From: Thunnus maccoyii
Lineage: Eukaryota > Chordata > Actinopteri > Scombriformes > Scombridae
Direction: 5' to 3'
Assembly: GCF_910596095.1 (NCBI RefSeq)
Contig: NC_056555.1
Location: forward strand, 13,446,001 to 13,510,000
DNA length: 64,000 nucleotides
Part shown: positions 8,461 through 54,870 of the stretch, one piece after another
Numbering within the stretch: the stretch's first letter is position 1
Layout: each line of letters begins with the position of its first letter
Made by a program: the position numbers and the translations under genes
The notes under the pieces: model-generated
The model's input: only the letters and a program-made list of their open reading frames with translations
What the model was told of the DNA's origin: nothing
Databases searched by the model: none

Positions 8461-8811
8461 CTACACAGTGTAAGTGTGTTGATGGTCCTTTAAATGTACA
8501 AATACAGTGAAACTCTTACCACACTGGTCACAGGTGTGAGGATTTTCTCCAGTGTGAGTACGCAGATGTTTCTGTAATTGTCCAGATAGAATGAAACTCT
8601 TACCACACTGGTCACAGAGGTACGGTTTTTCTCCAGTGTGGATACGCTGATGACACTTCAAATATGATGAGGAAGAGAAGCTCTTCTGACACTTGTCACA
8701 GTGGTGTGTTTTCTCTACAGTGTCGGCACGCTGATGTGGATCCATTTGTCCTCCTATGAAACTCTCCTCACTCTCACCATGAGGTCCGGCTAGGTTTTTG
8801 CTCGTCTGTTT
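8461..8811 (-). CDS. C2H2 zinc-finger gene, left copy: second terminal exon (3 fingers)
   Basis: The exon begins at an acceptor (TATAATAG) at 8812 and encodes about 116 residues. [17 protein letters not shown]-type leader runs into [16 protein letters not shown], followed by two good C2H2 fingers with TGEKPY linkers and a degenerate third ([17 protein letters not shown], then HTY). It ends ...HTYTV and stop, the same C-terminus as the right-arm gene. C2H2 arrays of this type bind DNA in the nucleus; no KRAB or SCAN domain is visible. The acceptor phase equals that of the upstream terminal exon (8790-9806), so exon 2 (10782-10844) could splice to either. It probably arose by tandem duplication of the terminal exon and its 3' intron end. 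Expression of this short form is unproven. Confidence 0.65.
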
Positions 8812-9806
8812 CTATTATACAAAACGAAAGAAAGAGAAAGACATAAGGAATGTAAGAATGTATTAAATAGTGGAACTGATACAAGAAGAAGTGTCCTGAT
8901 GTATGAATACATGGACAAGGTAGAGGTGAAGAAGGCATTTCCGTTGTTAAACCAATAGTTACTAAACACCTGTGAGTGCTGTATGGCTCTTACACCAGTG
9001 TGGATATGCTGATGATGCTTCAAATATGCTGAGGAAGAGAAGCTCTTCTGACACTGGTCACAGGTGTAAGGCTTTTCTCCAGTGTGAGTGCGCAGATGCT
9101 CCATTAAATGTCCAGATTGAGTGAAACTCCTACCACACTGGTCACAGAGGTACGGTTTTTCTCCAGTGTGAGTGTGCAGATGCTTCTTTAAATGTCCAGA
9201 TTGAGTGAAACTCTTACCACACTGGTCACAGGTGTAAGGCTTTTCTCCAGTGTGAGTGCGCAGATGCTTCTTTAAATATCCAGATTGAGTGAAACTCTTA
9301 CCACACTGGTCACAGGTGTAAGGATTTTCAAGAGTGTGGATACCCTGATGATGCTTTAAATTTCTTGAGGAAGAGAAGCTCTTCTGACACTGGTCACAGG
9401 TGTAAGGCTTTTCTCCAGTGTGAGTGCGTAAATGGTCTTTTAAATTTCTAGTTTGAGTGAAACTTTTACCACACTGGTCACAGGTGTAAGGCTTTTCTCC
9501 AGTGTGAGTGCGCAGATGGTCCTTTAAATTTCCAAGTTGAGTGAAACTCCTACCACACTGGTCACAGAGGTACGGTTTTTCTCCAGTGTGGATACGCTGA
9601 TGATGCTTCAAATATGTTGAGGAAGAGAAGCTCTTCTGACACTGGTCACAGGTGTAAGGTTTTTCTCCAGTGTGGATACGCTGATGACACTTCAAATATG
9701 ATGAGGAAGAGAAGCTCTTCTGACACTGGTCACAGTGGTGTGTTTTCTCCACAGTGTCAGCACAATGATGTGGATCCATTCCGGCTAGGTTTTTGCTCGT
9801 CTGTTT
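8790..9806 (-). CDS. C2H2 zinc-finger gene, left copy: first terminal exon (9 fingers, read-through end)
   Basis: The acceptor TATAATAG at 9807 leads into KQTSKNLAG, then [16 protein letters not shown] and nine tandem C2H2 fingers (CDQC-x12-H-x3-H with HTGEKPY linkers; one linker is degenerate, HTLENPY). After finger 9 the frame does not end like its paralogues. It runs into about 70 residues ([11 protein letters not shown]...) that are the translation of duplicated intron sequence, and stops at 8790 inside the next exon copy. The exon 2-plus-3a product would be about 359 aa. Fingers of this kind contact DNA; target and partners are unknown. The junction between finger linker and intron lies at about 9001 and marks an unequal exchange. 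Confidence 0.75.
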
Positions 9807-11789: not shown

Positions 11790-13740
11790 TTTTTTTTATA
11801 TAACCTGATTGGCACCTGATTGGCAGCACCTGGGAGTACCAGAAGCTCCATACAAGAGTCAATAGCAACAGCAAAATAAGCTGTTTGGCATTGGCAGAGA
11901 AGATTTGGCAAATTTTTCATGGGCACAACCCACATACTCAGCTCTGCTGCTCATCCCACAAATGCATGTCCCTTACAAATGTGGCACCATTTAAAAGGGT
12001 AATAAACATGCTTTCCAACAGTATAAGATTCATTGCCAAGAAGCATTGTTACAACAAAGAAATAATCTACCAAACACAAATTTCCTTACTTTTTGTGCTA
12101 AGTTTAGATAGTTCATCTCCATGAAAGAAAGAAGAAGACACCAGATAACATGAGTCAGATACAGCTTCTCTCTCTCTGTCTCTTTGGTCGCTAATTTCAT
12201 CTCTGATGGTTAAGTATCTCTCTGTGTGGCTATTGTGTGAATGTATCTCCTAACAAGAATGAAGCAGAGATCATATAATGTAGGTAGTTTGCTTGTTGAA
12301 GTTACAGTGAGCTGTCTGGACTCACTCATGATCCCGTTTTTTAAATTGAGTGATTGTTCAGTCACCTGTTGATGTTGTGTGATTTGTGAATGAGTGCAGG
12401 AGGTCTGGCTGCTTGCTTGTGACATTTTCTTCAGTTCGTTTTTAAGCTGAGCCTTGTATTGAGTAATAAGCTTAAAGTAACTAGAATAACGAATGTTAAG
12501 ATGTCAGCTTTGTAGACTATATTTTGTATGTCGTGCACATAGGGTTAGAGTTTAAGCTCTGGCTCTCGCCTTAGAGAATGATGTGAACCAAATACTATGT
12601 TTTTTGTTTTGGATATGTTAAGTATCAGTTTGTTTTCAAAAATCCACTTTCCAATAATATCTAGCTCCCTGTTCAAGATGTCAGTCAAATCAGCAGATGT
12701 TGTTGCTGATGCATGTACAGTAGTGTCATCTGCATACATAGTTAATTTAGCATTTTTTAGTACAAGAGGTAAGTCAATGGTAAAAATGGTATACATAAGT
12801 GGGCCTAGGCAGCTCCCTTGCGGAACTCCACATTTCAAAGACACGCTATCTGAGTAACCTCCATTAAAGAAGACTCTCTGCGATCTATTTACCAGATAGC
12901 TTTCCATCCAGGCAACTGCAAATGGTCTGAATCCATAACACTCAAGCTTTTCAAGAAGAAGATTGTGGTCAATAACATCAAATGCTGCCGTAAAATCTAG
13001 TAGGACTGCTCCACATATCATTTTGTTGTCCAGATCTCTGTACAAGTCATCTGTCATTTGCACTAAAGCTGTGCATGTAGAGTGTCCCTTTCTGTAAGCA
13101 TACTGGAAGTTTGTTATCAGACAAACTTCCAGCACTGGGAAAAGCTCAGTGACGTACAGTCCTATTGATTTCCTGATTTATTTTGAATTGACATTTGCCA
13201 CAATGGGGAACCCGCATCTTTCCAGTCATTTGACACCATGGCTGAAGGCTTGGACTGTGAGTGTTTGGATGTCAGGTTGATACGTAGACTCTTTTTATCG
13301 AACTATCTTTTTCTCCCTTTGTAATTACCTGCTGAGTGTTGGCGAGAGTCTGAATCTGTCCTTGTTTGTTTTTCACTAATAAAGGATGTTCACAAAAAAG
13401 ATATGTGTACTATGATGCACTTTCTTAACAAAATATATGGTAAAGTGATTCCAGTATGTCTCAGTGCCATTTTAAGAGAATTTTAATTTTTTTATGATTA
13501 TTGGGATCATATCATTAATCGCAATTATTTTGGCCAAGATAATCATGACATGAAATTTTCCTATCGTCCCATGCCTTACCTGATGTTGAAACAACTGATC
13601 TGATGTTGAAATGTACTTTATGAACTGTGGTAACTAAAATATGTCATTTCCTCTCAGTTAGTTAAATATTTCTTCACAAGAAAAGGCCATTTTAAAACAA
13701 AGTAAATTTTAATTCATGAATCATTGGTTATTTAAAAAAA
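11790..13740. other. Spacer between inverted-repeat arms
   Basis: This 1.95-kb spacer separates the two divergent zinc-finger genes. It contains the LINE reverse-transcriptase fragment (12545-13135) and otherwise AT-rich sequence without mirrored counterparts. Promoters of both zinc-finger genes should lie in the inner arm ends or here, but I see no clear core elements. Confidence 0.6.
12545..13135 (-). pseudogene. Non-LTR retrotransposon reverse transcriptase fragment
   Basis: A 196-codon open frame carries the RT palm core: motif A in LLDFTAAFDVIDH (catalytic Asp), motif B in GVPQGSCLGPL, and motif C as YADD (catalytic Asp pair) followed by TTVHA. The upstream AYRKGHST motif is typical of jockey-superfamily (CR1/L2/Rex-like) RTs. 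Endonuclease, N-terminal RT and C-terminal parts are missing, so it is a truncated, immobile remnant. The exact clade was not determined. Confidence 0.85.
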
Positions 13741-16398: not shown

Positions 16399-17085
16399 AA
16401 ACAGACGAGCAAAAACCTAGCCGGACCTCATGGTGAGAGTGAGGAGAATTTCATAGGAGGACAAATGGATCCACATCAGCGTGCCGACACTGTGGAGAGA
16501 ACACACCACTGTGACCAGTGTCAGAAGAGCTTCTCTTCCTCATCATATTTGAAGTGTCATCAGCGTATCCACACTGGAGAAAAACTGTACCTCTGTGACC
16601 AGTGTGGTAAGAGATTCATTCAATCTGGACATTTACAGAACCATCTACGCACTCACACTGGCAAAAAACCGTACCTCTGTGACCAGTGTGGTAAGAGATT
16701 CATTCAATCTGGACATTTACAGAACCATCTACGCACTCACACTGGCGAAAAACCGTACCTCTGTGACCAGTGTGGTAGGAGTTTCACTCAATCTGGACAT
16801 TTAATGGAGCATCTGCGCACTCACACTGGAGAAAAGCCTTACACCTGTGACCAGTGTCAGAAGAGCTTCTCTTCCTCAGCATATTTGAAGCATCATCAGC
16901 ATATCCACACTGGAGAAAAACCGTACTTCTGTGACCAGTGTGGTAGGAGTTTCACTATGTCTGGATATTTAAAGAAGCATCTGCGCACTCACACTGGAGA
17001 AAATCCTCACACCTGTGACCAGTGTGGTAAGAGTTTCACTGTATTTGTACATTTAAAGGACCATCAGCACACTTACACTGTGTAG
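16399..17085 (+). CDS. C2H2 zinc-finger gene, right copy: terminal exon (6-7 fingers)
   Basis: The acceptor TATATATATAG opens 228 codons: a leader ([16 protein letters not shown]...) to [16 protein letters not shown], six canonical C2H2 fingers with HTG(E/K)KPY linkers, and a degenerate seventh in which the final His is lost (HQHTYTV, stop). With exon 2 the protein is about 249 aa. Fingers 2 and 3 are near-identical 84-bp repeats (CDQCGKRFIQSGHLQNHL). A nuclear DNA-binding role is expected from the family; targets are unknown. It is the diverged twin of the left-arm gene, transcribed away from it, with no KRAB, SCAN or BTB domain visible. Confidence 0.8.
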   Translation, partial: KQTSKNLAGPHGESEENFIGGQMDPHQRADTVERTHHCDQCQKSFSSSSYLKCHQRIHTGEKLYLCDQCGKRFIQSGHLQNHLRTHTGKKPYLCDQCGKRFIQSGHLQNHLRTHTGEKPYLCDQCGRSFTQSGHLMEHLRTHTGEKPYTCDQCQKSFSSSAYLKHHQHIHTGEKPYFCDQCGRSFTMSGYLKKHLRTHTGENPHTCDQCGKSFTVFVHLKDHQHTYTV

Positions 17086-27680: not shown

Positions 27681-29522
27681 TCAATCTGTGTGGCCTACTG
27701 GAGTGATTATGAGCGAATCGTCATGATCTCCAAACAAACCAAAAATAGGGTAGAGCTTCGGTCTGTTACTTAAGGAAGTGCCAGCCAAAGTGTAAAGAAG
27801 AGTCTTCAGTGCTGGTGCGGTCTCAAAGAAGGTACAGCCTGTGAAGGAGTAGATCAGAGTCCTGGTGTCCACGTCATAGAAGGAGACCTCTCCCTTCTCA
27901 TAATCGACAAACACACCAACTGTCTGGGGCCTCTGGCTCAGGTACACGGGATCTGCTAGGGGGTTACCAGTGTTGGGAAAATAATGCTGTTCGAATAGGC
28001 TTCTGATTCCAGAAAATGTCCAGCCTCCTTCCTCAGGGTTGGGAAACAAAAAGGTCTGCTTGTTAATGGACTCTTTGACAACTCCCAAGACCCAGTGGGT
28101 ACTTTGACTGACCTGGACCTCATAGTAGAACCTGCCTGAGGAAAAACCATCTTTCCCAAGGACGAAGGATTGATGTTCAAATCTTCTTGCAAATAAAGAT
28201 GGCGACAATTGATTGCCTTCATTAAGTCTCAGTTGTTTCCCATCCTCAGACACCGTAAGTCTGGCATTGGCTGTGTAGGCATCCATAGTCACGTCCACTT
28301 CATCGTACAGCTGGATCATCATCAGCTTGTCCTGAGGTGGATTCCACACTTCTTTAATAAACTTGTCTGTTGTCTGTTTTCCAGCAACATCAGTCTGTTC
28401 AGCAGCCTCACAGCCATCACTAAACTTGACCTCTTGAATGAGTGTCTCCATCTCATTATTGAGTGTCTTTTCTATCTTAGCCACTGCTTTTTTCACCATC
28501 CCCACACAGCTCTGACGACTCATGTCGGAGCCATCTTGTGTAAATGGATTGGTGGAGTGTGACAGAGGGTTGTGTAGGTACTCAGTGTGTGCAGGGAAGC
28601 AGAGGGAGGGCCAGCTCTGCAGGAGGTGGAGGTGGTCCTCTGTTTGTAAAAGCTGCTCAATCTCAGACCTTCTCCTCTTTAGCTCAGTGACTTCTAGTTC
28701 CAGCTGTGCCATGTGGTCTTCAGCTGTCTTCACTGCTGCTTTCTGCTTCTCCTTGATCACCTCAATCAGCTCAGCCTGCCCTCTTTGTAGGGAGGCCACC
28801 AGAGCAGTGAAAACCTCAACAACGTCTGCTATCTCTTTGTCTGACTCTTTCTTTCTCTGTTCAAGTGAGTATTGGATTCTCTTAACACTCACGGATTTAG
28901 TGATTTCCATCGTTTTTATTTCTGACATCAATGTCTCAATCCAGGTTTTCCTCTCTCTGACAACGTGCTCTAATGGGACGGTTTCATGCATTGCATGGTC
29001 GTCTTTCAAACACAAGAAACAAACACACATCTGGTCTGTGCGACAGAAGAACTCAAACATCTTGTCATGCTTCTTACAAACCCTGTCCTCCAGGTTTGAC
29101 ACAGGATCGATCAGCTTGTGCTTCTTAAGGGCTGGTACTCTCTGATGAGGCTCCAGGTGAGACTGGCAGTACGAGGCCAAACACACCAGACACGTCTTCT
29201 GGGCCTTGAGCTTTAGCCCAAGGCAGACGTCACAGGGCACCTCCCCTTGTTGGGCAAGGCTCTCATCTGCACCCCTCACCCTCATATTGTTGAAATGCTC
29301 CACCATATCTCTGAACTCTGTGTTGACCTGAAGCTGTGGTCTTCTGCGGAACTTCTTCTTACAGAGTGGACACTGTGCCACGTTACTGGTGGCCCAGTAC
29401 CCTGTGATACAAGACTTGCAGTAGTTGTGTCCGCATGGAGTAGAGACAGGCTCAGTGAACGCACATAGACAGATTGAACACAGAAGTTGTTCTTCACACA
29501 GGAGACTGCTGGCTGAGGCCAT
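27681..29522 (-). CDS. TRIM E3 ubiquitin ligase, bloodthirsty-type (RING/B-box/coiled-coil/B30.2)
   Basis: A 613-codon uninterrupted frame. The RING (residues 15-54) has all eight ligands in C3HC4 spacing (C15, C18, C30, H32, C35, C38, C51, C54). A B-box 1-like zinc site follows at 97-126 and a B-box 2 at 149-179 (C149, H152, C160, D163, C168, C171, H176, H179). A Glu/Lys-rich coiled coil spans about 190-300, and a PRY-SPRY (B30.2) domain covers about 400-613, with the FVLGKDGFSSGRFYYEV signature. The full domain set predicts a cytosolic ubiquitin ligase whose B30.2 recognises targets. In teleosts the expanded bloodthirsty/finTRIM families are linked to antiviral and immune responses. The start is just downstream of a splice acceptor (TCTCACCTAG, two bases before ATG), so a 5'UTR intron is likely. 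The single coding exon is usual for this family. Target and inducibility are inferred, not seen. Confidence 0.9.
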   Translation of the reverse strand: MASASSLLCEEQLLCSICLCAFTEPVSTPCGHNYCKSCITGYWATSNVAQCPLCKKKFRRRPQLQVNTEFRDMVEHFNNMRVRGADESLAQQGEVPCDVCLGLKLKAQKTCLVCLASYCQSHLEPHQRVPALKKHKLIDPVSNLEDRVCKKHDKMFEFFCRTDQMCVCFLCLKDDHAMHETVPLEHVVRERKTWIETLMSEIKTMEITKSVSVKRIQYSLEQRKKESDKEIADVVEVFTALVASLQRGQAELIEVIKEKQKAAVKTAEDHMAQLELEVTELKRRRSEIEQLLQTEDHLHLLQSWPSLCFPAHTEYLHNPLSHSTNPFTQDGSDMSRQSCVGMVKKAVAKIEKTLNNEMETLIQEVKFSDGCEAAEQTDVAGKQTTDKFIKEVWNPPQDKLMMIQLYDEVDVTMDAYTANARLTVSEDGKQLRLNEGNQLSPSLFARRFEHQSFVLGKDGFSSGRFYYEVQVSQSTHWVLGVVKESINKQTFLFPNPEEGGWTFSGIRSLFEQHYFPNTGNPLADPVYLSQRPQTVGVFVDYEKGEVSFYDVDTRTLIYSFTGCTFFETAPALKTLLYTLAGTSLSNRPKLYPIFGLFGDHDDSLIITPVGHTD

Positions 29523-29559
29523 GTCTAGGTGAGAGAAGAGAAGAGAATTTGATGATTAT

Positions 29560-32330: not shown

Positions 32331-32354
32331 CAGAAGTGTGTGTGTGTGTGTGTG

Positions 32355-32518
32355 TCAGTGAATGCGCATCATAAGCCATGGGAAGTATCCAGTGCGCTGC
32401 ATGCCGAAGGTACTGATGAAGAGGTTGAGGACTGTGGTGATGAAGACTATGATGCTTGTCACATTGTTCAGGTAGTCCAGACGCTTATGCAGGGCGGAGT
32501 TATTCAGGTTCCGACGAC
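32355..32518 (-). CDS. Ninjurin-2-like gene: alternative terminal exon D
   Basis: Acceptor GTACCACAG at 32519, then 164 nt in phase 1 (completing a Gly codon with the G left by the shared exon at 36017), encoding GRRNLNNSALHKRLDYLNN, a hydrophobic helix, and a tail with FGMQRTGYFPW, stop. It is homologous to exons A-C over its full length (R2, R13, LNN, Asn in the helix, FG, RT). In ninjurins this region is the last transmembrane helix plus the extracellular C-terminus. A (TG)n tract precedes the acceptor and a (CA)n tract abuts the stop codon on the sense strand. This is the most distal of four copies. Confidence 0.75.
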
Positions 32519-33330
32519 CTGTGGTACATGCACGCACACATATACACACACACACACACAGTAGAGAAAGAGAGGGTTCAAACTACTCTTGGTTGTGACA
32601 CACTGAGAGACTTCTAGTTGCACTACACTTTACAATAAATGGACAAAATTTCAATGGACAACTCCCCTCCTTCAAACTCACATGCATGGACCCACATGTA
32701 GTCACACACTATAGTTTGTGATATAAGCTTCATTTCATGTTCATTAATACAAATCAACCAGTCTCCAGCAAAAAAAGACAGTGAACATGAATCAAGCATC
32801 TGTTAAATCACTGCATTTATTCAACTTTCTGGAGGAGAATGTGTACGTACATATTAGAGGCAAATTGAACCTCAAAAACATTTCCTTTGTCAAACAAGTT
32901 TTGAAAATAAATGATATAAAATAATCAGTTTTCATAATTTTACCTATTAACAAACAAGGGGGAAACATGTAAAGTGTAAAACCGTTTGAAATACACATAA
33001 TGGAACTCATGCACAATTTTAGAAATGGAAATTCAAGCATATTACTGCAGCCAATATAGTAATGCATATTTACATAGATGTTCAGTTGGTTAAAGTGGAG
33101 ATATTTTAGTTGGATTACAGACTGAAAACAGCATTTAAATAAAACTTTTCAAAGCTGGAGTAATAAATAAGATATAATATTTGAATTGTTTGTCTCAACT
33201 TTGCACAGAAAAGTGTAGCCAACAGGTGCACATACATTTTCAACAACCTTACTTTGAATAAATGTGTTTAAGTGTGTGAATTTGCTGTGTGAGTGTGTGC
33301 ATGTATGTATAAATGTATTTGTTGTTTGTT

Positions 33331-33332
33331 TG

Positions 33333-33408
<76 letters not shown>

Positions 33409-33410
33409 TG
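33331..33410. repeat. (GT)n microsatellite abutting exon C stop codon
   Basis: About 80 bp of nearly pure GT on the plus strand, hence (CA)n at the very start of the 3'UTR of ninjurin exon C. Together with the opposite-sense tract upstream of the exon (33583-33614) it could form a long RNA duplex. Confidence 0.9.
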
Positions 33411-33577
33411 TCAGAAGTGGAGTCGAGCCAGTAGCCAGCGGAAGAAGCCAGTCCTCTTGGATCCGAAGAAGCTGACGAAGAAGTTAACCACCGTGGTGAC
33501 GAAGATAACGCCTGTAGCCAAGTTGTTCAGGTAGTCGAGTCGTTTCTGATTGGACACCACGTTCAGGTCCCTGCGGG
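33411..33577 (-). CDS. Ninjurin-2-like gene: alternative terminal exon C
   Basis: Acceptor TGTGTTGTAG, then 167 nt in phase 1 encoding ARRDLNVVSNQKRLDYLNN, the helix NLATGVIFVTTVVNFFVSFFG, and a basic aromatic tail (KRTGFFRW...RLHF), stop. The LNNLATG segment is closest to that of ninjurins generally, so C may preserve the ancestral form best. Same frame, phase and architecture as A, B and D. It is intact, with no stop or frameshift. Confidence 0.75.
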
Positions 33578-33619
33578 CTACAACACACATACACACACAC
33601 ACACACATACACACGGACA

Positions 33620-35018
33620 GACACACAAACACACATATTTCAAACATTTCAAACACACCCAATCACACAGACACATTTGATGCATACATACTCGCATGCA
33701 CATATGTATTTGAAACACTCAAAACACAATGCACCCATACAAGCAGCAAATTCACACACAGTTCAGTCACACTCCCTCAAGCCTCTGTCTTGTTCAGGTG
33801 ACATTTTGACTGTACTTATGCTAACAAAGTTGCTCATGCATTTGTATTAAAAAAATCCACATGAATCCCTTACCTCAAATCAAGTATTTGTTGAAGGAAT
33901 TCAGTATTAATTTGTCATAATTTAATGCTGCCCTCAAGCAGGGAACCCCCCGCTGGTCCAATTAAATGAAGCTGCTCAGTAGCAGAGTTAGGATAAACTG
34001 AGAGGATCCTGTTTAGACTCTAAAATGTGGACATGCTGTCTGTTTTGTGCTTTTCTGAAGTCACATTTTGAACCTTTATCAGAAAAAAACAAGCAGCAAC
34101 TATCACTGCTTATGGCTGAAGCCAATGCAGAAGCACCTTAAAGTTCAGTGCCACCAATGGCTGCTAGATGCTGACTCCAAAAAAAACGTCAACTTCTCTT
34201 TTGAAATACTAAATCAATCATTTTTTTCTGTGAGTCATTATGGTCTCAATCAATGAATTCAGGCCCTCTAATAAGTGCACTGGTGGGCATTTTGGGAGCC
34301 TGGCCCCAAACAGAAAGTGGAAAAACACACCTCTCTTAGGCGCTTTTAGACTAAACAAGTTTTAGATGTGGCACATATTAAGTCAATGCAAAGGATGTGA
34401 ACAGATGCAAATTCACTGTAGGCACCACAAACTGCATGTTAAGAAACATCCCTGGGAGTTGCTCAACTGAAGCAAAAAAATTGTTTGAAGGAGTCCATTT
34501 GTTGGAAAAAGTCCATTTAGGGACTTGGATTGTTGCAGATAAAAGTAACCAACTTCATATTTCAAATGAGAGGTTGGAGGTTCTCTCATTCACTTTAATA
34601 CGGATGAAGTTTTTTAATGAAGCTGATCTAGTGGCCAATAGAAGATCAGCATCTTAAGTGGCTTCTGTATTAAATACAAACATATTCACACTGGGATTTT
34701 GCTTCTATGTTTAGCTCTGAGGCTGAATGTTGAAGCAAAGTGTGAATGTTTACAAGTGTTTGAGGCTACAGGTAAATTAATAGCATTTTGTTCCTTGCAT
34801 GGATGGGTAAAGATTAAAGCTGCTATGAGTAGGATTTCAAATGTCTGTGCTTTAGTGCCATCTGATGGTGGTATCAAGAATGACATTGTGGCAAACATGC
34901 ACTCATTTTCGATAGCAACGTATTACAAAGTAACTTTAAACATGCATGTTTATGCTCAGTTTATGTGTATGAATGTACGTACTGTACACTGTGTGTGAGT
35001 GTATCAGTTACATGTGTT
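33620..35018. other. Interval between ninjurin exons B and C
   Basis: No coding exon seen. ATTAAA on the minus strand (plus 34594-34599) lies about 420 bp past exon B and is a weak poly(A) candidate. Degraded repeat sequence elsewhere. Confidence 0.4.
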
Positions 35019-35188
35019 TCATAGAATGAAACGCTGAAACATCCATCGCAGGAAGCAGCTGCGTTGTGTGCCAAAGGCGGCTTTGATGATGTTGACGATG
35101 AGGGTGAGGAAGATGATGCCGGTGATCAGATTGTTCAGAAAGTTTAACAACCGCTGATAAGAGGGGAGGAGGGTCAGCTCAAAACGAG
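35019..35188 (-). CDS. Ninjurin-2-like gene: alternative terminal exon B (divergent)
   Basis: Acceptor TGTGTGTGCAG, then 170 nt in phase 1 encoding ARFELTLLPSYQRLLNFLNN, a helix, and the tail FGTQRSCFLRW...RFIL, stop. It is the most divergent copy, with one extra residue before LNN, a Lys inside the predicted helix (NIIKAAFG where others have N-[IFL]-F-[IV]-S-x-F-G), and an added Cys in the tail. The open frame and intact acceptor argue it is functional. Topology or partner choice may differ. Confidence 0.7.
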
Positions 35189-35513
35189 CTGCACACACAC
35201 ATATGACGATAGTGCATACATACATTACACCATTACACACACAGACAACAATAACACACAAAGACATTCAGACAAACACACACACACACACAAACACACA
35301 AACACACACACACGTAGTTGGTCTCTTGGCCCAGTCCATTCATACTGAATCAAATCAAACAAAGATACCAGGGTGCAGTAATACTGTAACTGATTAGTAC
35401 TGTAAGTAGATCAATAAGTCACACTCCTCTGTTTGTGTGTGTGTGTGTGTGTGTGTGCGTGGTCCCAAGTTTTCTCTAGTTTCTTTATTAGAATCATTCC
35501 CTACGTCAGAAAG

Positions 35514-35668
35514 TCAGAAATGCATCCTGGCAAAGAGGCCGGTGCGCTCCATCCCGAAGACAGAGATAAAGATGTTGGTGACGAAGATGAGGAAGATGAT
35601 GACGGTTATGATGTTGTTCAGGCTGTCCATGCGCTTCTGGTTGGCCTCTTCGTTGATGTCTCGCCGAG
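35514..35668 (-). CDS. Ninjurin-2-like gene: alternative terminal exon A (proximal)
   Basis: Acceptor TGCTTGTTGCAG, then 155 nt in phase 1 encoding ARRDINEEANQKRMDSLNN, the helix and FGMERTGLFARMHF, stop. This is the shortest tail. AATAAA on the sense strand (plus 35484-35489) lies 25 nt after the stop, so this exon could be cleaved and polyadenylated on its own, as expected of an alternative last exon. It is the first copy met by the spliceosome after the shared exons. Confidence 0.8.
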
Positions 35669-36016
35669 CTGCAACAAGCACAGACATGTACACACACACA
35701 CACACACACACCAAAAATAACAAACTACACAAAAGATGCAGACAGATTTGTCCAAGATTTCATTTAATATGCATATTTGTTTTTTCATGTTGAGCAGAGA
35801 ATATGTTTGGTGGCTTGGATGTTTTATATCTGCAAACCATTTTCCGCCAAAACAGACAAGAAAGTGATTGGAATTTAAACAGCATTGCCTGTATTTTCAG
35901 AATAAATCAATGTGTCAGTGTATTAGTGTGTTAATATGATTGGTTAAAACATGGAGGATGGATTTCTGTAGGGGGCGGGCTTTAAGCAGACCAATGTTGT
36001 GATGTGATTGGCTCAC

Positions 36017-36096
36017 CGATGATGATGATCAGGACTCCAGCCACTATCTGAAGAGCCAGGGAGAAGGAGATGAGGGTCAGGACGGCAATGTAGTAC
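36017..36096 (-). CDS. Ninjurin-2-like gene: shared membrane-helix exon
   Basis: Acceptor CACTTCCTCAG, 80 nt, donor GTGAGC. It encodes YYIAVLTLISFSLALQIVAG and VLIIII (26 full codons), the first long transmembrane helix of ninjurins. The 5' end completes an Arg codon from the preceding exon; the 3' end leaves a single G that becomes Ala (with CT or CC) or Gly (with GT) depending on which terminal exon is used. It is the only copy, shared by all four predicted isoforms. Confidence 0.85.
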
Positions 36097-36223
36097 CTGA
36101 GGAAGTGAGATTAAAAGGTTATGCAACGTTTTCAGAATTCAACTGGACCTTGAAAACTAATAAAATTGTGTTCCTGTGATCCCTGTTTGCCTCTCAGGTG
36201 CACATACTGTACTGATACAGTAC

Positions 36224-36360
36224 CTGTATCCAGCTCCCTGTTCGATGACAGTCTTCATGTGAGTGACGTTAGCCAGGAACAGAGCGATGTCCAGCATGCC
36301 CTCAGCCGCGGTCTTCTTAGTGGCATACAGGTTCATGTTCAGGTTAGAGGTCGAACCACC
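36224..36360 (-). CDS. Ninjurin-2-like gene: shared N-terminal helix exon
   Basis: Acceptor TTTCTCTCAG, 137 nt, donor GTACTG. It encodes GGSTSNLNMNLYATKKTAAE, then GMLDIALFLANVTHMK and VIEQGAGYR. The N-x-YATKK-x-AAE-x-MLD-x-AL-x-x-AN block and VIEQG are the ninjurin signature, covering the amphipathic helices that in NINJ1 drive membrane-surface assembly. Ninjurins are small plasma-membrane adhesion/assembly proteins (NINJ1 drives plasma-membrane rupture; NINJ2 does not clearly do so). The terminal exon pattern (A-R-x-N-L-N ... LNN ... FG-x-x-[KR]-[TS]-G-F) favours NINJ2. The initiator exon is upstream and not found. Confidence 0.85.
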
Positions 36361-53288: not shown

Positions 53289-54870
53289 CAGTGCTGCTTG
53301 AAACCCTTCAGAATTTTCTGCATTTCTGCATAAATATGACCTAAAACGTGAGGTCCTAAAACTAGATAAAGTGAACCCAATTAAACATATAAGACATAAA
53401 AAATCTTTTATTTATTGAGGAAAATTATCCACTCTTACATATTTGTGTGAGGCAAAAGTATGTGAATCCTTGCTTTCAGTAACTGGTGTGACTCCCTTTT
53501 GCAGCAATAACTTCAACCAAATGTTTCCGGTAACTGTTTATCAGCCCTGCACATCAGCTTGGAGGAATTTTAGCCCAATCCTCCTTACAGAACAGCCTCA
53601 ACTCAGGGATGTTGGTGGGCTTCTTTGCATGAACTGCGTGCTTCAGGTCCTTCCATAGCATTTCTATAGGATTAAGGTCAGGACATTGACTCAGCTATCC
53701 CAAAAACATTATCTTTCTTCTGCTTTAACCATTCTTTGGTAGAACGACTTGTGTGTTTCGGCTCGTTGTCTTACTGCATGACCCACTTTCTGTTGAGCTT
53801 CAGTTCACAGATGGATGCCTTGACATTTTCCTGTAGAATTTGCTGGTACAACTCAGAACTTGTAGCTCCTTCAGTGATTGCAAGATGTCCTGGTCCAGAA
53901 GCAGCAAAGCAGCCCAAACCATGATACTACCACCACCATGTTTCACAGATGGGTTAAGGTTCTAATGCTGGAATGCAGTGTTTGCTCATTTCCAAACATA
54001 ACGCTTCCCATTCAAGCCAAAAAGTTTGATTTTGGTCTCATCCATCCACAGAGCATTTTTCCAATCACCTTCTGGCTTATCCATGTGGTATTGAGCGAAC
54101 CGTAGACGGCAGCAATGTTCTTTTTGGAGAGAAGTGGCTCCTCTCCTTGCAACTCTGCCATGCACACCATTGATGTTCAATGTTCTCCTGATGGTGGACT
54201 CATCAGGAGAACTGGCTGTAGTCACTGCATGAGAGGCCTTAGTTTCCTAGACGTTACCCTGGGGCCCCTTATGGCCTCCCAGTGTATTACACGCCTGCTC
54301 TTGGTGTGACTTTTGTTGTTCAACCACTCCTGGGGAGGATAACAATGGTGTTGAATGTACATAATCTGCCTGACAGTCAACTGGTGGAGTCCAAACTCTT
54401 TAGAAATGGTTTTGTAACCCTTTCCAGCTTTGTGGGCATCAACAACTCTTCTGCTCAGGTCCTCAGAAATCTCCTTTGTTTGAGCCATGACACACTTCCA
54501 CAAACCTGTGTTTTGAAGTTCAGACTTTGATAGTGAAGACCCAGATTTCTCTTCTTTAAATAAGGCAGGGCCTCCCAGACTCACACTTGATTGTCATCCC
54601 ATTTATTGAAACACCCAACTCTAATTTCCCCTTCAAATGAATTGATAATCCTAGGGGTTCACAATGCTTTTGCCACGCACAAATATGTAACATTGGATCA
54701 TTTTCCTCAATAAATATACAAATAAGTGTAAATTTGTTTGTCTCATTTGTTTAACTGATGTCTCCTTATCTAGTTTTAGGACTTGAATGGAAATCTGATC
54801 ACGTTTTAGATCATATTAATGCAGAAATAGAGCAAATTCTAAAGAGTTCACAAACTTTCAAGCAGCACTG
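53289..54870 (-). mobile_element. Tc1-like transposon, full length, decayed
   Basis: The element is bounded by CAGTGCTGCTTGAAAC-type termini (left from 53289, complement ending 54870) and flanked by TA on each side. The inverted ends extend roughly 180-230 bp and include repeated sub-motifs (CCTAAAACTAGATAA, TATTTATTGAGGAAAAT), as in IR/DR-type Tc1 elements. The left end has a deletion of about 35 bp relative to the right. Total 1582 bp is the normal Tc1 size. Confidence 0.92.
53480..54488 (-). pseudogene. Tc1 transposase remnant
   Basis: The start MAQTKEISEDLSRRVVDAHK lies at 54488, followed by a helix-turn-helix region, then frameshifts. A second open block (DESTIRRTLNINGVHGRV ... WMDETKIKLFG) holds the first catalytic Asp region, and further pieces retain the SYRKH and EDWAKI segments near the C-terminus. 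The NPIEN Glu region survives only in broken frames. Several frameshifts and stops prevent a functional DDE transposase. Confidence 0.88.

Follow-up and report, generated by a model that had tools for sequence, protein, structure and literature searches.

Can one ninjurin gene hold several last coding exons and use one of them per transcript? A locus of Thunnus maccoyii (assembly GCF_910596095.1) raises this question. It lies in a window of contig NC_056555.1 (positions 13,446,001 to 13,510,000 of the forward strand; C23:13446001-13510000 in our genome searches), by which we mean the whole stretch of 64,000 nucleotides (nt) that was analysed. Two ninjurin exons, called here exons 2 and 3, are followed on the minus strand by four homologous terminal exons, A to D (Table 1). 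Most probably the gene is NINJ2-like and all four of its alternative last exons are functional, a reading to which we give a probability of about 0.7. How the exons would be chosen, and what their choice would change in the protein, is answered below with less confidence.

Anatomy of the locus

Recomputing the exons from the sequence, we found an AG acceptor, a common phase and an own stop in all four terminal exons. When exons 2 and 3 were joined to any one of A to D, the product stayed open to one final stop. Each of the four joined isoforms matched all 102 positions of the Pfam Ninjurin family (PF04923) with 107-123 bits (E 5e-31 to 5e-36), the cut-off of this family being 26 bits. The terminal peptides of A, C and D exceeded the cut-off even when taken alone (29.9, 26.5 and 28.2 bits, respectively). 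The shared part carries the conserved ninjurin residues K44/K45, D53, Q91 and G95, and the two membrane helices are assigned through alignment to solved ninjurins only. Recomputation confirmed an earlier sequence-only reading of this DNA, which had described two single-copy exons followed by four homologous terminal exons alike in acceptor and phase, each with an intact frame and a stop. Its exon coordinates held almost to the base; its acceptor numbers did not, as they name the last intron base and are 1 off the exon start.

A profile of the four exons, run over the six-frame translation of the window, returned the terminal exons at E 7e-28 to 1e-33, as expected by construction, and its next best match stood at 0.32. 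Independently of this profile, human NINJ2 matched all four terminal exons in a tblastn search of the window (E 2e-6 to 2e-12). The gap in the profile search and the independent NINJ2 matches together indicate that the terminal exons are not chance matches.

An intron of 127 nt (36223-36097) parts exon 2 from exon 3; none of the other three ninjurin loci in this genome has it. The sequence CAGGTACT is present at both ends of this intron, which might be a trace of intron gain via a small duplication. The open frame around exon 2 (36423-36160) includes an ATG upstream of that exon.

Table 1. Ninjurin exons, sequence tracts around them and the other ninjurin loci; positions are those of the window, except for the loci in the last line.
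Feature	Position	Strand	Description
Ninjurin exon 2	36224..36360	minus	137 nt; end of N-terminal region and amphipathic helices (GGSTSNLNMNLYATKK...GAGYR); single copy in window
Ninjurin exon 3	36017..36096	minus	80 nt; first membrane helix (YYIAVLTLISFSLALQIVAGVLIIII); donor TCG/GTGAGC common to all isoforms
Putative alternative terminal exon A	35514..35668	minus	155 nt; last membrane helix and tail, own stop
Putative alternative terminal exon B	35019..35188	minus	170 nt; own stop; most divergent copy
Putative alternative terminal exon C	33411..33577	minus	167 nt; own stop
Putative alternative terminal exon D	32355..32518	minus	164 nt; own stop
AATAAA, possible polyadenylation signal	35484..35489	minus	25 nt after stop of A
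(TG)10 tract	35691..35710	minus	22 nt before exon A
(TG)8 tract	35277..35292	minus	88 nt before B; additional, shorter TG runs reach to within 3 nt of the exon
(TG)8 tract	33592..33607	minus	14 nt before exon C
(TG)8 tract	32545..32560	minus	26 nt before exon D
(CA)12 tract	35434..35457	minus	56 nt after stop of A; pairs with upstream UG tract in predicted fold
(CA)32 tract	33341..33404	minus	6 nt after stop of C; pairs with upstream UG tract in predicted fold
(CA)9 tract	32337..32354	minus	directly after stop of D; pairs with upstream UG tract in predicted fold
Other ninjurin loci (L009-L014), NINJ1-like	C4:3092824, C3:18102765, C4:22102295		material of exons 2 and 3 in one exon each

An old array, maintained as protein

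The terminal peptides of A to D are 30-59% identical to one another and their DNA is 54-63% identical. By the Nei-Gojobori method, the proportion of synonymous differences (pS) was 0.47-0.76, against 0.28-0.43 for nonsynonymous differences (pN). Synonymous divergence (dS) reached 0.73-2.41 in five pairs, the pair B-C being beyond saturation, and the ratio of nonsynonymous to synonymous divergence (omega) was 0.55 for A-B, 0.14 for A-C, 0.61 for A-D, 0.65 for B-D and 0.30 for C-D. A pairwise codon model rejected omega = 1 in six of six pairs, with p values from 4e-4 to 3e-12 outside the weaker B-D pair. Residue identity exceeded that of neutral simulations (p<0.05) in five of the six pairs. Neutral simulations at the observed divergence gave a premature stop in 64-84% of cases per pair. 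A crude star simulation without indels or selection gave a probability of 0.003 for four copies that all remain open and share the place of the stop; this is a rough guide, as the stops of the real copies do not all coincide. Where the copies differ in length, they do so by whole codons. Synonymous divergence, the omega tests and the neutral and star simulations cumulatively establish that the array is old and has been maintained as protein, under long-term purifying selection that is weakest for B. This copy also has the longest branch (0.87). In the tree, a branch with no more than fair support (77/86) set the four terminal exons apart from five other ninjurins.

The genome searched comprises 782 Mb in 54 contigs, and the searches score best candidates only, so that all counts from them are lower bounds. 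A search with the Pfam family found at least four ninjurin loci, this one and three others, and reading 20 kb around each of the other three revealed a single terminal exon apiece. With the protein of exon C as query, at least seven terminal exons were found, four at this locus and three weak ones (E 0.002-0.09). Exon 2 as query gave at least four matches, one here and three at the other ninjurin loci. Exon C as DNA had no second match in the genome, and one scan of viral contigs with this exon yielded no relative. With one exon-2 match at this locus and one terminal exon at every other locus, the array was seen nowhere else in the genome, and it is not a row of complete genes. At the ninjurin locus at C4:3.09 Mb, the TAG stop of the terminal frame lies inside a donor-like CAG/GTAGGC and an acceptor-like CACAG follows further on, and an additional exon is possible there.

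Proposed choice of the last exon and alternative explanations

Under the reading that we favour, the last coding exon of a NINJ2-like gene would have been duplicated in tandem long ago, and all four copies would have been kept as functional last exons. The donor at 36017 would be spliced to one of four acceptors, giving four mRNAs from one gene. We infer that all four are spliced and, since each has its own stop, that a single one is used per mRNA. The N-terminal helices and the first membrane helix would then be common to all mRNAs, and the second membrane helix and the tail would come in four versions, one per mRNA. With less certainty, we suppose that this choice is regulated through the UG-rich tracts ahead of the acceptors, in the manner of TDP-43 action on CFTR exon 9, together with UG:CA stems able to enclose single exons or loop them out. 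If, for example, the UG tract ahead of A paired with a CA tract lying further downstream, the intervening exons would be looped out and the next acceptor would be left nearest the donor.

A TG-rich tract stands ahead of all four alternative acceptors and of neither constitutive one (exons 2 and 3). The TG count in the 60 nt upstream is reached by 0.7 (A), 1.0 (B), 0.3 (C) and 1.6% (D) of window positions; the same measure for exons 2 and 3 is reached by 95 and 85%. The minus strand of the window holds 16 (TG)>=6 runs, four of them within about 105 nt upstream of A to D with no other such run between 21.9 and 42.4 kb, and nine (CA)>=6 runs, three of which follow the stops of A, C and D. TG counts over the 100 nt ahead of the terminal exon were 23, 28, 32 and 16 for A to D, and 11, 9 and 15 for the paralogues. 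The TG/CA tracts were all that the copies shared outside the exons in an ungapped repeat search, which diverged or gapped repeats could escape. In the predicted folds of A, C and D with their flanks, a closing UG:CA stem surrounds the exon (z -3.25 for A, -4.95 for C and -2.04 for D). UG and CA tracts of different exons are also predicted to pair (-45 to -97 kcal/mol), 13 of 16 tract pairs exceeding the strength that 1% of 300 random pairs attain (-47.9).

Scored with a splice-site matrix, the acceptor of A was the best of the four. The first AATAAA after the stop comes at 25 nt in A, 590 nt in C and 295 nt in D, in a window with about one polyadenylation-type signal per kb. The motif GTRAG occurs within 300 nt after the stop in one of four exons (C, at 158 nt); it is a strict motif, which the donor of exon 2 itself (GTACTG) fails.

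Several of our results weigh against four functional, regulated last exons. Taken alone, the terminal peptide of B scored 18.2 bits, below the Pfam cut-off; the residue identity of B-D did not exceed neutral simulation (p 0.27), and this pair barely passed the codon test (p 0.035), so that B may be relaxed. The omega values of the codon model (0.004-0.30) are untrustworthy, with divergence at the set bound in A-B and B-C, and pairwise tests average over time and are blind to recent loss. A scan from ATG to donor for exon 1 with a donor matrix came back empty, a result of little weight, since neither the donor of exon 2 nor that of exon 3 passes the threshold used. The acceptors of B to D score as weak, which fits regulation and equally fits disuse, and A alone has a close AATAAA, B having none before C and just an ATTAAA at 401 nt. 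As to the tracts, the 100 nt that follow the stop are not unusually rich in CA in A or B (6 and 4% of positions, respectively, are at least as rich), the fold of B resembles its shuffles (z -0.37; 32 of 100 fold as well), and three of the 16 UG-CA pairs are no stronger than the 1% background. The tracts may also have been copied along with the exon, and their placements would then not be four independent events.

Alternatively, only A, or A with one or two others, may be used, the remaining copies being relics of an old tandem duplication that show no visible decay yet. A lies nearest the donor and combines the best-scoring acceptor with a close AATAAA, and B is the most divergent copy, its constraint weak in some comparisons. 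We nevertheless regard this as unlikely, since unselected copies of such divergence would mostly have acquired a premature stop, omega = 1 was rejected in every pair and the copies differ in length by whole codons. That the four exons are instead remnants of four complete tandem ninjurin genes stripped of their upstream exons, or genes collapsed in the assembly, is highly improbable and largely refuted. Two very weak matches on the minus strand downstream of D point in this direction, one exon-2-like (31017-30922) and one terminal-like (31704-31654), with tblastn E values of 0.4 to 4.7 and 8.2, respectively. Both come from single-sequence searches, and family profiles support neither: the former is absent among the 14 family-profile matches listed, and the latter, tried as a fifth terminal exon, reached E 4.4 with family profiles (phmmer with human NINJ2 over its frame gave 0.73), and we rejected both as chance. 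Single-sequence and profile searches revealed no second exon 2 or exon 3 in the window, nor was one found elsewhere on the contig among the best candidates scored. Copies that are 54-63% identical in DNA, with exon C lacking a second DNA match, are not collapsed near-copies. As far as the sequence can show, the assembly collapse that the sequence-only reading had considered thus found no footing, as the searches of window and genome (best candidates scored) returned no further upstream ninjurin exons.

A different doubt concerns the control step only. The last exons may be real while the TG/CA tracts are ordinary microsatellites, carried by the duplication or causing it through unequal crossing-over, and the choice may depend on how strong each splice site is, on the speed of transcription or on something else. 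This is compatible with four functional last exons, as both can hold, and we consider the odds on it to be even. TG and CA runs of at least six units do occur elsewhere in the window, B has a short CA run only and no special fold, and when 13 of 16 tract pairs exceed background the pairing is hardly specific. On the other hand, the tracts persist at all four acceptors, though no other shared repeat outside the exons was listed, and the paralogues have fewer TG before their terminal exon, though their highest count (15) comes close to the lowest here (16). On balance, four tandem terminal exons of one gene, as the sequence-only reading had interpreted them, with a protein-level constraint that is weakest for B, remain the explanation that we prefer; the comparison drawn there with protocadherin and Dscam calls for correction.

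Protocadherin arrays consist of alternative first exons and Dscam arrays of internal exons. Both resemble the present locus as homologous exon arrays that diversify one part of a surface protein, whereas the array here has four members and is made of last exons. Tandem or alternative last exons are themselves a known kind of arrangement. A nearer analogue would be the mutually exclusive terminal exons or 3' variable regions of Drosophila pip and PGRP-LC, as described in an excerpt of PMC9013439, in which one of several tandem terminal exons or 3' regions is chosen per transcript. The gene and the lineage are different, and in that excerpt the pip exons are discussed as exons of untranslated regions and the 3' region of PGRP-LC is chosen by competing RNA structures. 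By contrast with PGRP-LC, the pairing elements here would be simple UG/CA repeats, and exon use is predicted from sequence. CFTR exon 9, with a UG repeat at its 3' splice site as the site of TDP-43 action (excerpt of PMC12171016), is similar in having this repeat near a weak 3' splice site (TG11-13 there, 8-10 units here). It differs in that one internal exon is skipped there, as against four putative alternative last exons with such tracts here.

In the open-licence PMC literature, so far as its accessible excerpts extend, we found no duplicated or swapped last coding exon in a ninjurin. An exon-array study lists human NINJ2 among genes whose splicing in blood differs after stroke (PMC7642687), and mouse Ninj2 is reported to switch the length of its 3' untranslated region in oocytes (PMC8558312); the excerpts of these reports describe no duplicated or swapped last coding exon. 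In fishes, NINJ2 appears in a list for zebrafish myelin (PMC8060510), and expression of ninj2 is reported for the brain of the tongue sole (PMC5037682).

Identity of the gene and possible effects of the swap

The name Ninjurin-2-like, given in the sequence-only reading, is a fair one that is supported, not proven. The shared part encoded by exons 2 and 3 groups with human NINJ2 (support 72/88, from 68 columns and six rows; not starred), and F57, V93 and T82 in this part are as in NINJ2, T82 being found also in two of the NINJ1-like paralogues. A, C and D have an RTG tail motif (KTG in NINJ2), which B lacks. Identity of the shared part is 54% to NINJ2, 51% to NINJ1 and, highest, 59% to the NINJ1-like paralogue on C3. 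An OSR1_C match of WNK/OSR1 type lies 104 kb away on the same contig; the match does not tell the subtype. Human NINJ2 lies beside WNK1 and human NINJ1 beside WNK2, which fits this match. OSR1_C matches also lie about 15 kb (C3) and about 31 kb (C4:22.1 Mb) from other ninjurin loci. Among human-type NINJ2 neighbours, neither CHGN nor RAD52 gave a match on this contig; RAD52 matched on C5, where a further OSR1_C match lies at a distance of about 15 kb. The tree grouping, F57/V93 and the OSR1_C neighbour thus favour the name and fall short of a proof of orthology.

The closest solved proteins to isoform C were NINJ2 and NINJ1 (chains 8szb, 8cqr and 8uip). The ninjurin region and its order are the same in these proteins, with four terminal exons here versus one there. 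Tail lengths are not comparable, as the human sequences used stop at the alignment ends.

Last membrane helix and tail both come from the swapped exon, and positions 117, 121, 123, 134 and 138 of NINJ1 fall within it. At these positions A reads SITIV, B FLTIA, C YLTFF and D YVSLT, against FLTIA in human NINJ1 and QATVA in human NINJ2. According to excerpts of PMC10307626, the NINJ1 changes T123L, I134F and A138L reduce or abolish filaments and lysis, and changes at L121 modify activity alongside wild type. A review (PMC12547243, in excerpt) states that the position of NINJ1 F117 and NINJ2 Q103 governs cholesterol binding and filament curvature, and that the difference between rupturing NINJ1 and non-rupturing NINJ2 lies partly in the second membrane helix. 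Since the swapped segment holds positions reported for ninjurin filament formation and curvature, we infer that the choice of last exon would alter protein assembly.

One could go further and propose a switch between filament types selected at the RNA level, in which UG:CA looping or TDP-43 on the UG tracts would pick the last exon. The exon would set the residue at the cholesterol position (Ser in A, Phe in B, Tyr in C and D) and the intersubunit contacts 134 and 138. Isoform B, with five NINJ1-type residues, would favour flat, membrane-rupturing filaments, and A, C and D, when mixed in, would act by curving, capping or poisoning the filaments. We consider this switch very doubtful. B alone among the isoforms equals NINJ1 at five of five positions with an overall identity of 17/41, a match of hypergeometric probability 0.008 that is uncorrected for four isoforms and concerns positions not fixed beforehand. 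The switch is weakened by this fish's own NINJ1-like genes, which match human NINJ1 at only 2, 2 and 3 of the five positions. It is weakened also by the NINJ2-type residues F57 and V93, thought by the authors of PMC10307626 (excerpt) to disturb filaments, as both lie in the shared part, and by another review (PMC13093763, excerpt) that puts the NINJ1/NINJ2 comparison down to residues of the amphipathic helices, which are common to all isoforms here. The N-terminal region, moreover, can give NINJ2 rupture activity (PMC12547243, excerpt); the corresponding region was not located here. If this helix is indeed swapped through the choice of a last exon, nature would offer a gene with four helix variants on an identical background, in which the cause of rupturing versus non-rupturing ninjurins would be directly testable. 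The locus would also be a compact vertebrate example of such a choice in which the elements are simple UG/CA repeats.

Elsewhere in the window, a long open reading frame (ORF) of TRIM type on the minus strand (27684-29555) comprises RING, B-box, coiled coil and PRY-SPRY. A fragment of a retroelement reverse transcriptase lies on the minus strand at 12548-13177, and fragments of a Sleeping Beauty/Tc1-type transposase form two overlapping ORFs on the same strand at 53989-54593. Two related C2H2 zinc-finger ORFs in opposite orientation (8793-9806, minus; 16399-17082, plus) have the first residues KQTSKNLAG in common and are possibly an inverted duplication.

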